Positions 17,670 through 36,669 of a DNA stretch of 40,178 nt are shown here, in pieces. How positions within the stretch are numbered: position 1 is the stretch's first letter; each line of letters opens with the position of its first letter. A model generated the notes under the pieces. That model had not been told where the DNA came from and made no database searches. It was given only the letters and a program-made list of their open reading frames with translations. This DNA is from Promethearchaeota archaeon (lineage in GTDB: Archaea > Asgardarchaeota > Lokiarchaeia > Sigynarchaeales > SOKP01), in contig JAHLWJ010000004.1 in the NCBI GenBank assembly GCA_019057975.1, positions 1 through 40,178 of the forward strand. The letters run 5' to 3'. Both the position numbers and the translations under genes were made by a program.

Positions 17670-18860
17670 ATTATTAATCTAAATAAAGAAATTGAAAAAC
17701 TTTTATTAGAACAGGGAGCTGTGAGTGTAGGATTTGCGATAAAGAATACACTTGAAGGAGGACCCCCCACTACGGATATGACTTATATACTTCCAGAAGC
17801 AGAAACTGCAATCTGTTTTGCTGTTCCGTTGGATAAGTCAAAAATACGTCCTTATTTGGGAAAATCTGGAAAAAGGGGACGTTTTGATCATGTAATTGAT
17901 AATGGAGATGTATATTTAAAGGCGTATAAATATTCAAAGGTTGCTGCTGATTTTTTAGAGGAAAAGGGATATAAATCTGCTCCAGTCATTAACAACTTCA
18001 AATATCGTGAGGATGTACGTGATTGGCGGACAAAATTACCACCACTTCTCGCTCTTAGATTGGTTGCAGCCCGTTCAGGTGTTGGTTCAATAGGGTGGTC
18101 AGGTAACATTCTAGTAAAAGGATATGGCGCTGCTATTTTATTAGGTGCACTTGTAACTTCTGCGAAATTAGAACCTACAGACCCTATACCCATAGAGGAT
18201 TCACCTTGTGATAAATGTAAACTATGTGTAAATGTCTGCGCCTTTAGAATGTTTGACAATAAAGAAGAGGATTCATATATGCTTGGAGGATATACCTTTT
18301 CATTTTCAAAACGGATTAACGTATCTCGCTGTTATGCAGTTTGTGGAGGGCAATCAGGTTTGGACAAAACACATAAATGGTCTACATGGTCTCCTGGACG
18401 AACACCTTATCCCGAAACAGAAGAAGATGCGGATCGAACTTTTGCTCACCTATTCACCCATCCTGTAAAAAAATTACGTGTTGCAGGGGAAGAAGGGAGT
18501 TATGCTGAGTCAAAATTAATAAATGATAAAATCGCTCAAGAATATATCTCATCAGGGGAGATTGCATCAAATACATTTACAGAAGACTTCATTCTAACAT
18601 GTGGAAACTGCCAATTGATTTGCTCGGGCGATCACGATGAAACTGCTGAAAATTATCGTATATTAACAAATTCGGGTTGTGTTGTGACCACAGAAAATGG
18701 TGATAACATAATCTTGTCTAAGGAAGAAGCAGACGAACTTGAAAAAGCTGGAAAAATTGCTAATCCATATGTCGAAACCTCTGAGAGGCGCCAATATGTC
18801 GAAAAAATAGTCACTGATATCTTTAAGAGACTTAGAAAGGAACAATCAGATGAACCCTAA
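17670..18860 (+). CDS. QueG-like (epoxyqueuosine reductase/reductive dehalogenase-like) Fe-S protein, probable ATT start
   Basis: The cysteine pattern CDKCKLCVNVCAF near residue 175 and a second set, CGNCQLIC, near residue 310 fit the two 4Fe-4S clusters of QueG-like and reductive-dehalogenase-like proteins. GSIGWSGNILV matches the substrate/cofactor loop region. The first standard start is GTG 17721, but the frame is open back to TAA at 17655. The extra codons (NKEIEKLLLEQGAVSVGFA) form the N-terminal helix-strand of this family, so translation should begin upstream, most likely at ATT 17670. The HEAT repeats of true QueG are missing, so the substrate is not predicted. It is convergent with the neighbouring minus-strand gene; the stops are only a few nt apart. 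Confidence 0.8.
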   Translation: MINLNKEIEKLLLEQGAVSVGFAIKNTLEGGPPTTDMTYILPEAETAICFAVPLDKSKIRPYLGKSGKRGRFDHVIDNGDVYLKAYKYSKVAADFLEEKGYKSAPVINNFKYREDVRDWRTKLPPLLALRLVAARSGVGSIGWSGNILVKGYGAAILLGALVTSAKLEPTDPIPIEDSPCDKCKLCVNVCAFRMFDNKEEDSYMLGGYTFSFSKRINVSRCYAVCGGQSGLDKTHKWSTWSPGRTPYPETEEDADRTFAHLFTHPVKKLRVAGEEGSYAESKLINDKIAQEYISSGEIASNTFTEDFILTCGNCQLICSGDHDETAENYRILTNSGCVVTTENGDNIILSKEEADELEKAGKIANPYVETSERRQYVEKIVTDIFKRLRKEQSDEP

Positions 18861-21369: not shown

Positions 21370-22431
21370 TTATTTTAAAAATCCGTAAGCATTTTTCAGA
21401 CGCTTTTCTGCATCACCTACTATATCGTCAACAATCTTCTTCACATTTTCTAAGCTGGATATTACACCAATACTTTGACCCAAGAGAACAGCTCCTGAGA
21501 GAACGTCCCCTGTATAAGCTGCTTCATACGCTTTCATTTCCTCAATCAATTCTTGTTGAGACATGGCTGATTCTTGAGCCATCTTCGCTTCTTTGTCCGT
21601 TACAAGCCCATGATGTAATGAATATTCGTTTTTCCATAAGCGTATAGGTCCTAAAGATCCTGTTACTAATATTGTGTCCTGAGCTTTAGCTGGAGGGACA
21701 ACACTTTTGTATTCTTGACTAAATTCACTGTCATTTGAAGCAATAAATCGTGAACCCATTGCAACAGCTCCTGCTCCCATAGCCAAAGCGGCAGCAAGCC
21801 CTTCACCTGTGGCAAATCCTCCACAAGCTATAACAGGAAAATCTGGATATTTCTGCATAACTTGTTGTAGTAAGACGAGGGTACTCACTTTTTCATAGGA
21901 CTGATGACCTCCTCCTTCACCACCAGTAACAACTACTCCATCAACATTTGAAGAAACACATTTATCAGCGAGCCATAATGCTGGAGCGACGTGAAAATGT
22001 TTAATTTGCGAACCACTCTCTTTCAATTTTTGATATTCTTTTGATTGGGGTAATGTTTTTGATGACCCTGCACTTGTAATACAATAAACACATTGTTCTT
22101 TTAATCTTTGGTTTTCTCTTATGAACTTCGGAATTTGTGTGACTAGGGCTGGAGCATCAACTTCCCTTCGAGAGGTTCTTACATTAAAGCCGAACGGTTT
22201 ATCTGTATGTTCAACCACAGACAACATATTCGTTTTCATAATTTCAATGGGACTTTTTCCTTTCTGATAATCACTTATTAAAGCACTGTGACTTAATACA
22301 CCAAGCCCACCTGCTTCTGAAACTGCAATTGTCAACTCGGTTGTATAGAATGGACCCATTGGAGCGGCAACTATAGGGTGTTTAATCCCTAACATTTTTG
22401 TTATATTTGTTTCTAATACCATTTTTTTCAC
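21370..22431 (-). CDS. NMO/FabK-like FMN-dependent oxidoreductase (copy A)
   Basis: About 350 aa. The TIM-barrel NMO/enoyl-ACP reductase II fold is shown by KHPIVAAPMGPFYTT near the N-terminus (first FMN-contacting strand), VVVTGGEGGGHQSY near residue 170 and the FMN phosphate loops VIACGGFATGEG and AVAMGSRFIAS. Starts are GTG 22431 or ATG 22422 (MVLETNITK); the second aligns with the paralogue at 35617. The family includes nitronate monooxygenases and FabK enoyl reductases; sequence alone does not choose. Its position next to a 3-hydroxyacyl-CoA dehydrogenase favours an enoyl-thioester reductase or dehydrogenase role, which is inference. It is very similar to the protein at 35617 and more distant from that at 28255. 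Confidence 0.88.
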   Translation of the reverse strand: MKKMVLETNITKMLGIKHPIVAAPMGPFYTTELTIAVSEAGGLGVLSHSALISDYQKGKSPIEIMKTNMLSVVEHTDKPFGFNVRTSRREVDAPALVTQIPKFIRENQRLKEQCVYCITSAGSSKTLPQSKEYQKLKESGSQIKHFHVAPALWLADKCVSSNVDGVVVTGGEGGGHQSYEKVSTLVLLQQVMQKYPDFPVIACGGFATGEGLAAALAMGAGAVAMGSRFIASNDSEFSQEYKSVVPPAKAQDTILVTGSLGPIRLWKNEYSLHHGLVTDKEAKMAQESAMSQQELIEEMKAYEAAYTGDVLSGAVLLGQSIGVISSLENVKKIVDDIVGDAEKRLKNAYGFLK

Positions 22432-28254: not shown

Positions 28255-29439
28255 ATGATACATACAAAATTCCAAGAGATAATTGGGACGAAGCATCCAA
28301 TCATACAAGCCGGTAAAATTGAGGAAGTCCCTCAATTTCGGTAAATGGGGCCATATGCTACGACTAAGTTATGCATAGCCGTGGCAAAAGAAGGCGGATT
28401 GGGCTTAATCTCGACGATTGGCATGGCAGGTCCTGATGTGAATTTTATACCTGAGAAAGATCGAAAACTTGATTTCGGAGTTGGTGGTACCCCCAAAAAT
28501 GTTCTTAAACAAACTATAAGGTATGTTTATGAAAAACTCAAGGATTATCCCGAAGCAAAATTTGGTGTTAATATACCAATTGCTAAAGAATTCACTATGG
28601 TGTCAAGACAATTTATGAAAGCCGTTATTGAGATTTTTGAAGAAACACCAGAAGTGAAGAATCAGTTAAATGTTATGGTGACATCCGCGGGAGATCCGCT
28701 TCCTTGGGCTATAGATGCGAGAGAAAAGGGATCTAAAAGGTCATTTCTTGAAATCAAGAAGGAATTACCTTCAGTAATTTGGTGTCAGGTGTGCCCAAAT
28801 GTGAGAGGGTCAAAAAGAGCTGAGAGATCTGGTGTAGATATTATCATAGCATCAGGGAGGGAAGGAGGAGCTCATTGTGCTTGGAGAGACACGTCTTCAA
28901 TGGTTCTACTCCCTGAGGTAGTTAGAACTGTCAATTTACCTGTTGTTGGTGCTGGAGGTTTTGCTGATGGTGCTTCATTAGCAGCAGCTCTCGCTTTGGG
29001 AGCTATAGGAGTTCAAATGGGCACACGGTTCATCGCTACCCAAGAAGGTGATTTTGAACAAATGTGGAAAGAGCAACTAGTAAAAGCCACTGAATTTGAC
29101 ACGATTGTTGGAAGAGGAATATTCGGACCTATGAGATTCTTAATTAACCGAGCCTCTCTTGAGGTTATTGATGAAACTATTAAGGGTGCTTCGGATCTAT
29201 ATCGTGGTAAACCTTGTCCATCAACTGATGAAATTCGCAAACTAGAGGAGCGAGGATTCAGAAAACTAGTAGATGAGGATGAAAATGAAAGTCTTATGAA
29301 CGCAGGTGTCGTCACCGGTAGAATTCACTCAATACCAACGGTCCATGATTTAATTCAAAGTATAATGACTGAAGCAGAAGAAATTATTTTAAACTTGCCA
29401 AATAAAGTAAAAAAAGAAGAAAATATTATAATAGAGTGA
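28255..29439 (+). CDS. NMO/FabK-like FMN-dependent oxidoreductase (copy B), interrupted by a predicted 30-nt BHB intron
   Basis: The frame begins at ATG 28255 (MIHTKFQEIIGTKHPIIQA), which matches the N-termini of copies A and C (ETNITKMLGIKHPI). After codon 20 it runs into TAA at 28342-28344, then continues in the same frame from 28345 with MGPYATTKLCIAVAKEGGLG. Removing 28315-28344 gives one 384-aa protein with HPIIQAGMGPY, the family's first FMN-binding strand. Other motifs: IIASGREGGAH, VVGAGGFADG and VQMGTRFIAT. Without splicing, translation could restart at ATG 28345 and give 364 aa lacking the first barrel strand. It differs from copies A and C (extra segment LDFGVGGTPKN; Pro replaced by Gly before MGP). 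The thiolase starts 6 nt after the stop, so they form an operon; an acyl-CoA-related role is inferred. Confidence 0.82.
28315..28344 (+). other. Predicted bulge-helix-bulge (tRNA-endonuclease-type) intron, 30 nt
   Basis: Inner helix: 28316-28324 pairs with 28330-28338, 9 Watson-Crick pairs, loop AAGUC. 5' bulge: 28313-28315 (GUA). Central helix of 4 bp: 28309-28312 (GCCG) with 28339-28342 (CGGU; one G-U pair). 3' bulge: 28343-28345 (AAA). The outer helix is weak (A28308-U28346, mismatch, C28306-G28348). Cleavage after the second base of each bulge removes exactly 28315-28344, takes out the TAA stop and joins GGU to AUG in frame. As in archaeal pre-tRNAs, the central helix pairs 5' exon with the intron's 3' part. 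Confidence 0.7.
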
Positions 29440-35616: not shown

Positions 35617-36669
35617 TTACTTTAAATAGGAATGAGCTTTTTTCAAGTTTTTTTCTGCGTCTTTAATTATATTATCAATTATATCAGACACATTTTCTAT
35701 TTTGTCAATAACTCCAATGCTTTGTCCTAAAGGAACAGCCCCATCGTTGATATTACCTTGGTAGGCTAACTCGTATTTTTCTGCCATTTCTGTTGCTTCT
35801 TCTGGAGTCATTGCTCCTTCTTGAGCCAGTTTTTCTTCTTTATTTGCCACAAGTTCATGATGTAGTGAATATTCGTTTTTCCATAAACGAATAAACCCTA
35901 ATGCGCCAGTAGTTAATATTGTATCCTGGGCTTTCGCAGGAGGAACAATATTTTTATAGGAATCATGAAATTCACTTTCTTTAGATGCGATAAACCGAGA
36001 ACCCATCACAACAGCTCCTGCACCCATAGCTAAAGCAGCCGCTAGACTTTGACCTGTTGCAAACCCCCCACATGCCACAATAGGATAATCTGGATATTTC
36101 TGTATAGCCTGTTGCAGTAAAACTAGAGTGCTCACCCTCTCGTAGGATTGATGTCCCCCTCCTTCACCCCCAGTAATCGCCAAACCATCCACTCCCGTGG
36201 CAACACATTTATCTGCAAGCCATAGTGCTGGAGCAACATGAAAATGTTTAATATTTGAACCCTTTTCCTTCAATTTTTGGAAAGATTTTGATTCAGGCAA
36301 CATCCTTGAAGACCCTGCACTAGTTACAGCATACACGCACTGTTCTCGAACCCTTTGATTTTCCAATATGAATTTTGGGATTTCTCTACAAATCCTCGAA
36401 CCGCTTTGCTCAGTTCGGGAAGTTCTAATGTTAAAACCAAAAGGTTTATCAGTATGTTCAATCACTTCTAGCATATTCTCTTTCATTATCTCTGTGGGAA
36501 ATCTTCGAGCTTGAAATTCGCTAAGTAAACCAGTATGACTCAGCACTCCTAGACCTCCAGCTTCTGAAACAGCTATAGTTAGTTCAGTAGTAAAAAATGG
36601 ACCCATTGGTGCTGCAATTATAGGATGCTTAATCCCAAGCATCTTAGTTATATTCGTCTCAATAACCAT
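35617..36669 (-). CDS. NMO/FabK-like FMN-dependent oxidoreductase (copy C)
   Basis: 350 aa, starting MVIETNITKMLGIKHPIIAAP. FMN-site motifs AITGGEGGGHQSY, VACGGFATGQS and AVVMGSRFIAS are present. It is nearly colinear with copy A at 21370 throughout, including the C-terminal GQSIGVI and a Lys-rich last helix, so these two are recent relatives; copy B at 28255 is a separate branch. The upstream spacer carries a short copy of its own first nine codons (36742-36795), a sign of earlier tandem duplication. It lies between the molybdoenzyme unit and the UroD-like gene, all on the minus strand, with an A9/T9 run after its stop (35575-35583). Whether it acts on nitronates or on enoyl thioesters is not decided by sequence. 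Confidence 0.88.
   Translation of the reverse strand: MVIETNITKMLGIKHPIIAAPMGPFFTTELTIAVSEAGGLGVLSHTGLLSEFQARRFPTEIMKENMLEVIEHTDKPFGFNIRTSRTEQSGSRICREIPKFILENQRVREQCVYAVTSAGSSRMLPESKSFQKLKEKGSNIKHFHVAPALWLADKCVATGVDGLAITGGEGGGHQSYERVSTLVLLQQAIQKYPDYPIVACGGFATGQSLAAALAMGAGAVVMGSRFIASKESEFHDSYKNIVPPAKAQDTILTTGALGFIRLWKNEYSLHHELVANKEEKLAQEGAMTPEEATEMAEKYELAYQGNINDGAVPLGQSIGVIDKIENVSDIIDNIIKDAEKNLKKAHSYLK

Follow-up and report, generated by a model that had tools for sequence, protein, structure and literature searches.

The stretch of DNA analysed here, referred to as the window, comprises 40,178 nucleotides of a Lokiarchaeial genome (Promethearchaeota archaeon, contig JAHLWJ010000004.1). It carries, at positions 28255-29439, a flavoenzyme gene of the nitronate monooxygenase (NMO)/FabK-like type whose reading frame is interrupted by a putative intron of 30 nt. 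PF03060 is present in homologues of the protein; the match of the window gene to the FabK model was below the model cut-off. As a preliminary description of this DNA had stated, the frame from ATG 28255 reaches a TAA at 28342-28344 and resumes in frame at ATG 28345, from where it continues to 29439. The two paralogues named there were also found in the window, with the corresponding motif unbroken (HPIVAAPMGPF and HPIIAAPMGPF; minus strand, 22348-22380 and 36595-36627).

Refolding of 28309-28345 yielded the same helices, bulges and coordinates as first proposed, with the arrangement of a bulge-helix-bulge (BHB) element (Table 1). The predicted BHB cuts remove 28315-28344 and restore the motif HPIIQAGMGPY, and orthologues were found that are without exactly these 30 nt. 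Excision of 28316-28345 instead would result in an identical mRNA, since positions 28315 and 28345 share the base A. When the 30 nt were shuffled 400,000 times at constant composition, a central helix at the exact cut sites was obtained in 2,812 cases; among these, the inner helix reached at least 6 bp in three and at least 8 bp in none. Since a loose BHB pattern alone is frequent (415 matches in 655,954 strand bases), the weight of this evidence is carried by the position of the fold and not by the motif alone.

Table 1. Features of the interrupted NMO gene in the window, and predicted introns in rpoA1, uvrB and EF-2 of related genomes.
Feature	Location	Strand	Evidence or remarks
Exon 1 of NMO/FabK-like gene	28255..28314	+	MIHTKFQEIIGTKHPIIQAG; conserved in orthologues
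30-nt intron (predicted)	28315..28344	+	Missing in G009, G001 and G004; G008 has another 30-nt insert here
Exon 2, MGPY... to stop	28345..29439	+	Open frame, 364 aa
In-frame TAA stop, inside intron	28342..28344	+	Frame reading
Central helix, exon-1 (5') strand GCCG	28309..28312	+	4/4 pairs with 28339-28342; covarying column pairs across the 18 introns
5' bulge GTA; predicted cut after 28314	28313..28315	+	Geometry and restored protein
Inner helix 5' strand	28316..28324	+	9/9 pairs with 28330-28338
Hairpin loop, 5 nt	28325..28329	+	Loop of equal length in each of the 18 distinct introns on this plan
Inner helix 3' strand	28330..28338	+	Pairing with 28316-28324; covariation
Central helix 3' strand CGGT (one G.U)	28339..28342	+	Pairing with 28309-28312; covariation
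3' bulge AAA; cleavage predicted between 28344 and 28345	28343..28345	+	First bulge base A in 18/18 distinct introns
rpoA1 (RNA polymerase A') insert, G001	C4:220013-220042		30 nt, stop-bearing, DEDGL-PIPSG; G008 uninterrupted
uvrB insert, G001	C4:251907-251936		30 nt, stop-bearing, YYQPE-AYMP; G008 uninterrupted
EF-2 intron position A			G008, G014
EF-2 intron position B			G008, G012, G007, G010, G002, G068, G023, G018, G070
EF-2 intron position C			G031, G027
EF-2 intron position D			G022

Orthologues of the NMO gene

The presence or absence of the 30 nt in related genomes had been proposed earlier as a check. At a threshold of 1e-80, NMO matches were obtained in 19 of 83 Lokiarchaeial genomes (21 matches in all). 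The orthologues of G009 (97%), G001 (95%) and G004 (92%) are uninterrupted, with exactly the 30 nt missing; G001 is the genome nearest to the window, with 26% of sampled 31-mers in common. The distant orthologues listed on the plus strand are likewise uninterrupted, and the NMO gene of G037 is listed with one stop, yet its reading starts with an unbroken QAGMGPY.

The only orthologue with an insert is that of G008 (92%), in which 30 nt with a TAA occur at the same place as in the window, 15 of the 30 bases being identical between the two inserts. The bulges in G008 are AAA and AGT; cleavage of both behind their second base would remove 30 nt shifted by one and restore QAGMGPY; removal at the codon boundary would give GVGP, that is, V at an invariant M. 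QAGMGPY is present in 114 of the 120 NMO homologues listed, which are all those covering the site, and M is found in 114/114. The other six (P0003, P0016, P0044, P0084, P0104 and P0108) are recorded with a start at MGPY, the beginning of exon 2, and may be candidates for further interrupted genes.

Thirty-nucleotide inserts in other Lokiarchaeial genes

Inserts in other genes were sought by homology comparison in three rounds covering 328 kb, then 1.06 Mb and then 2.43 Mb. In the first 328 kb, the sole stop-bearing in-frame insert of this kind was that of the NMO locus, in the window and in G008. Altogether 20 predicted introns, 18 of them distinct, were read in six genes, and all are 30 nt long: 14 in EF-2, two in NMO, and one each in rpoA1, uvrB, an MBL-fold hydrolase gene (G010) and an acyl-CoA synthetase gene (G008). 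Every one of the 20 contains an in-frame stop codon; TAA, TAG and TGA all occur, with up to three per insert. In all six genes the predicted BHB cuts restore the conserved protein. Rows of the search table also show stops and a surplus of 30 nt in rpoA1 of G016 and G062. The preliminary description had considered an intron this short in a metabolic enzyme to be new; the predicted intron of the window now belongs to a family that includes core genes.

EF-2 provided most of the introns. A match was found in 216 of 227 genomes of the phylum, and interrupted genes occur in at least 13 genomes, all in the family of G001, the best row for each showing in-frame stops and an excess of ∼30 nt for every insert; in many other genomes EF-2 is uninterrupted. 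The predicted introns occupy four positions (Table 1). G008 has two, splitting SITAH-IDHGKTT and TDSD-DEEQERG, which were found by a fixed-plan scan; another carrier, G010, is a one-contig assembly. In six of the 13 genomes (G008, G007, G012, G023, G027 and G070) no second EF-2 match besides the interrupted gene was found at 1e-60.

A related case was found in cbf5 of G048, a relative of the same order (C151:6500-9000, minus strand), which is split by 32 nt at locus positions 1497-1528. This insert adopts a relaxed BHB fold with a 7-bp inner helix, and a BHB cut restores both GTLDPKV and the frame. Matches to cbf5, the known host of such an intron, were obtained in 83/83 genomes, without an internal stop among the matches listed; Lokiarchaeial cbf5 is uninterrupted in nearly all of these matches, G048 being the split case found.

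All 18 distinct introns fit a common plan at 11-13 of 13 base pairs: a 4-bp central helix, a 3-nt bulge, a 9-bp inner helix, a 5-nt loop, the 9 and 4 bp of the returning strands and a second 3-nt bulge. With its cut sites, this plan corresponds to exactly 30 nt. In a gapless alignment of the 18 introns, 93.6% of the cells are paired compared with 59.9% in shuffles. Changes on both sides were observed at 13/13 pairs, with a covariation score of 0.853, where shuffles scored 0.206 and slid partners 0.12-0.16; the covariance of both arms, suggested earlier as a check, thus extends to every pair of the plan. As a control, 20,000 random places were scored at the best of 25 registers, and at least 12 pairs were reached in 65. 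The 3' bulge opens with A in 18/18 introns, and its second base is A in 15 and G in three.

Scans for BHB folds, proposed earlier for in-frame interruptions, were run on up to 4.86 million strand bases; the loose scan with its 415 matches proved uninformative when used alone. A first fixed-plan scan, with one mismatch allowed, gave 286 matches in 2.12 million strand bases (18 perfect), and six accepted introns were among the 22 listed matches with coding context. A later scan requiring at least 12 pairs gave 735 matches in 4.86 million strand bases, nine of them with coding context; five of the nine are homology-proven introns, and the other four were not established as real. At 126 distinct places with inserts of 8-14 residues, five scored at least 12, all stop-bearing and accepted, and four scored 11, one of which is the synthetase intron of G008. 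The other three, without a stop, were not accepted as introns. Also rejected were four stop-bearing places scoring 8-10, which lie in repetitive alignments or alignments on the scale of 53-71 residues at 46-62% identity, and several stop-bearing inserts from the 1.06-Mb comparison that were seen against short frames of 70-89 aa.

Interpretation and alternatives

Judged from the DNA sequence, the 30 nt in the window are very probably (at roughly 0.92) an mRNA intron with a relaxed BHB that is spliced by EndA and belongs to a Lokiarchaeial family of 30-nt introns with a patchy distribution among close relatives. The BHB intron of the preliminary description is thereby supported by the orthologues, by G008 and by covariation, and is amended in two respects, the relaxed form of the fold and its membership of a family.

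The proteins that such splicing would call for were surveyed in 19 genomes of the genus, a set in which the window's own assembly is not included. EndA-family genes are present in 19/19, with two genes in 14 and each frame ∼200 residues long. Among five representative sequences, two types can be distinguished: the first has the expected His and Lys and the second lacks the His, features that we take to mark catalytic and structural subunits, respectively. The type with His is closest to PDB entries 3p1z and 3ajv and the type without it to 1a79. RtcB was found in 18/19 genomes, the genome without it being 58% complete. In G010, 9 of the 16 tRNAs called in 1.36 Mb, with introns allowed in calling, are predicted to contain an intron. 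The same genome has a selenocysteine tRNA gene (L198, 19262-19354).

We propose that a two-subunit EndA would recognise the hairpin together with the exon-intron central helix in the pre-mRNA and would cleave both 3-nt bulges between their second and third bases. The exons would then be ligated by RtcB while the stop codon leaves with the intron; HPIIQAGMGPY would be made as one protein, and only spliced mRNA would be translated. Beyond the window, we lean slightly towards a wider picture in which tiny, uniform 30-nt introns are still spreading and being lost in housekeeping genes, are spliced by the enzymes of tRNA introns, and restrict translation to spliced mRNA by means of their stop.

Several points weigh against this interpretation. 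Splicing is inferred from DNA, as are cleavage, ligation, gain and loss, and all the genomes are environmental assemblies. The doubt voiced earlier about the outer helix was justified: it is essentially absent in the window and in the other introns, with only its first pair formed regularly (15/18) and positions 2-6 paired in 6, 4, 4, 11 and 5 of 18. A second bulge closed by an outer helix, as in a strict BHB, is thus not seen, and because the outer helix is confined to the first pair we class the fold as relaxed. The registers were chosen as the best within ∼12 nt (wider for the G070, hydrolase and synthetase introns), and EF-2 contributes 12 of the 18 introns in the alignment, many of them plainly related. 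Two introns, EF-2 B of G010 and that of the acyl-CoA synthetase, form only 11 pairs, a number reached at 647 of the 20,000 random places as a minimum. A single EndA gene is present in 5 of the 19 genomes, and the EndA found in G008 is of only the type without the expected His. Finally, further EF-2 matches are unlisted for the seven remaining intron-bearing genomes, where a second EF-2 is possible.

The least improbable alternative, which we nevertheless consider very unlikely, is a pseudogene, or a protein that starts at ATG 28345 and is shorter by the first 20 residues, with the hairpin as a chance insertion. The stop codon itself, the six homologues recorded from MGPY and at least one other broken-looking gene nearby in G008 would fit such an explanation. 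The preliminary description had named decay of the gene among the outcomes that would refute an intron, and none was detected: the whole spliced gene compared with four relatives gave dN/dS values of 0.04-0.07, a mark of strong purifying selection, and the frame is otherwise open, with no other lesion. Exon 1 is conserved too, differing from that of G009 by four synonymous changes and one nonsynonymous change, and a late start is at odds with the retention of QAGMGPY in all the listed homologues that cover the site. Moreover, EF-2 is interrupted on the same plan in 13 genomes, including the one-contig assembly, as is rpoA1, and decay would not preserve length, geometry and covariation.

Short stop-bearing gaps with hairpins are a hallmark of translational bypassing, and a gap of this kind in T4 gene 60 is reportedly jumped such that its sequence is absent from the protein. 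Programmed bypassing, in which the ribosome would jump the hairpin and the RNA would stay whole, could draw on the uvrB insert with GAA at both ends and on the G008 NMO insert with GGA at both ends; we regard it as very unlikely. Unlike what such a jump would need, the take-off and landing codons for the exact product are unequal in five of the six introns tested, including that of the window, with uvrB as the matching case, and a GGA-GGA jump in G008 would place V at the invariant M. The covarying central helix includes bases of the exon, which are paired to the intron in the manner of an EndA substrate, and in G048 cbf5 the insert has 32 nt and the predicted BHB cut restores the frame.

Readthrough or recoding of the stops, by which ten residues would be added at each site, is very unlikely indeed. 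It accords with the length of the 20 inserts read, a multiple of three, and with the recoding in Asgard archaea of UGA as selenocysteine and, in Sifarchaeia, of UAG as pyrrolysine (Pyl), described in passages of PMC9723677. The same passages present Lokiarchaeia as being without the Pyl gene cluster. All three stop codons are used in the inserts, up to three in one, and the ten residues would stand next to or inside DHGKTT in the GTP-binding region of EF-2 and within QAG-MGPY of NMO; the G048 cbf5 insert cannot be explained in this way, because it is 32 nt long. An assembly or binning artefact, to which the 5-9% contamination estimated for several of the environmental assemblies might point, is scarcely credible given that 14 further assemblies show the same plan (G001, G008 and another 12 in which EF-2 is interrupted, the one-contig G010 among the carriers), with recurring sites and covarying arms.

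Distribution of the predicted introns and comparison with known systems

The predicted EF-2 introns have a scattered, unclustered distribution on a tree built from 36 EF-2 rows. Ten changes are required for the no-intron label, compared with a shuffled mean of 10.8 (181/500 shuffles as low), and eight for label B, compared with a shuffled mean of 7.4. Because the tree of EF-2 thus does not account for which genes carry an intron, many losses and repeated gain are inseparable. Between EF-2 of G002 (L132) and of G018 (L151), the intron is identical at 30/30 positions, the preceding 30 nt at 97% and the flanks at ∼80%, which hints at local transfer or conversion; this is one pair and no proof. 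All 12 distinct EF-2 introns carry an in-frame stop, for which shuffles predict a frequency of 44-70% each; the product of 0.002 overstates the significance because the introns are related. Selection for silencing of unspliced mRNA is a possible reason for a stop in each intron.

The closest known system is the cbf5 pre-mRNA intron of Crenarchaeota, for which PMC2738675 describes an unconventional BHB and splicing tied to a hetero-oligomeric EndA. In line with the predictions made here, it is cut between the second and third bulge residues and is absent from some lineages (PMC2738675). That intron is described there for one gene in Desulfurococcales and Sulfolobales, whereas the predicted Lokiarchaeial introns are uniformly 30 nt long and were read in no fewer than six genes, with several positions in EF-2. 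Relaxed BHB forms are, according to parts of PMC12397907, competent substrates for some enzyme types, and the recognition logic and enzymes envisaged here are those of archaeal BHB and bulge-helix-loop (BHL) tRNA introns (portions of PMC12397907 and PMC6125680). Unlike those tRNA introns, the Lokiarchaeial ones are located in mRNA, have a fixed length of 30 nt and an in-frame stop, and possess an A that opens the 3' bulge.

Searches of the open-licence literature, bioRxiv preprints excluded, turned up no description of Asgard mRNAs with BHB introns, of a fixed 30-nt class or of a spread through housekeeping genes; the archaeal mRNA introns found there concern one gene, crenarchaeal cbf5. BHB introns, including one in mRNA, were already known, and what appears to be new is the uniform 30-nt class in Asgard housekeeping genes. 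EF-2 and RpoA1 are common phylogenetic markers, and, if our interpretation of a uniform class in essential genes is correct, core proteins of Asgard archaea are broken or truncated unnoticed during gene calling. Spliceosome-independent introns in protein genes would then be a living and dynamic feature of the archaeal relatives of eukaryotes, with a bearing on the intron and splicing background that predated the spliceosome. Present-day gain, movement and loss of mRNA introns, and the way in which a tRNA splicing enzyme selects mRNAs, would become accessible to experiment.

Two further observations were made in relatives. In G062:C88, G085:C31 and G052:C111, rpoA1 gives two matches split near query residues 455-466 within one open frame of ∼1,500-2,300 aa; our guess is an intein. 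The orthologue of window 17721-18860 in G008:C88 (minus strand) has in-frame TAGs at ∼9428 and ∼9893, where relatives have Trp and Tyr, and otherwise aligns well. Some Lokiarchaeia genomes keep a tRNA-Pyl without having Pyl genes, as mentioned in PMC9723677; because these genes are lacking in Lokiarchaeia, the gene with the two TAGs is probably a pseudogene.
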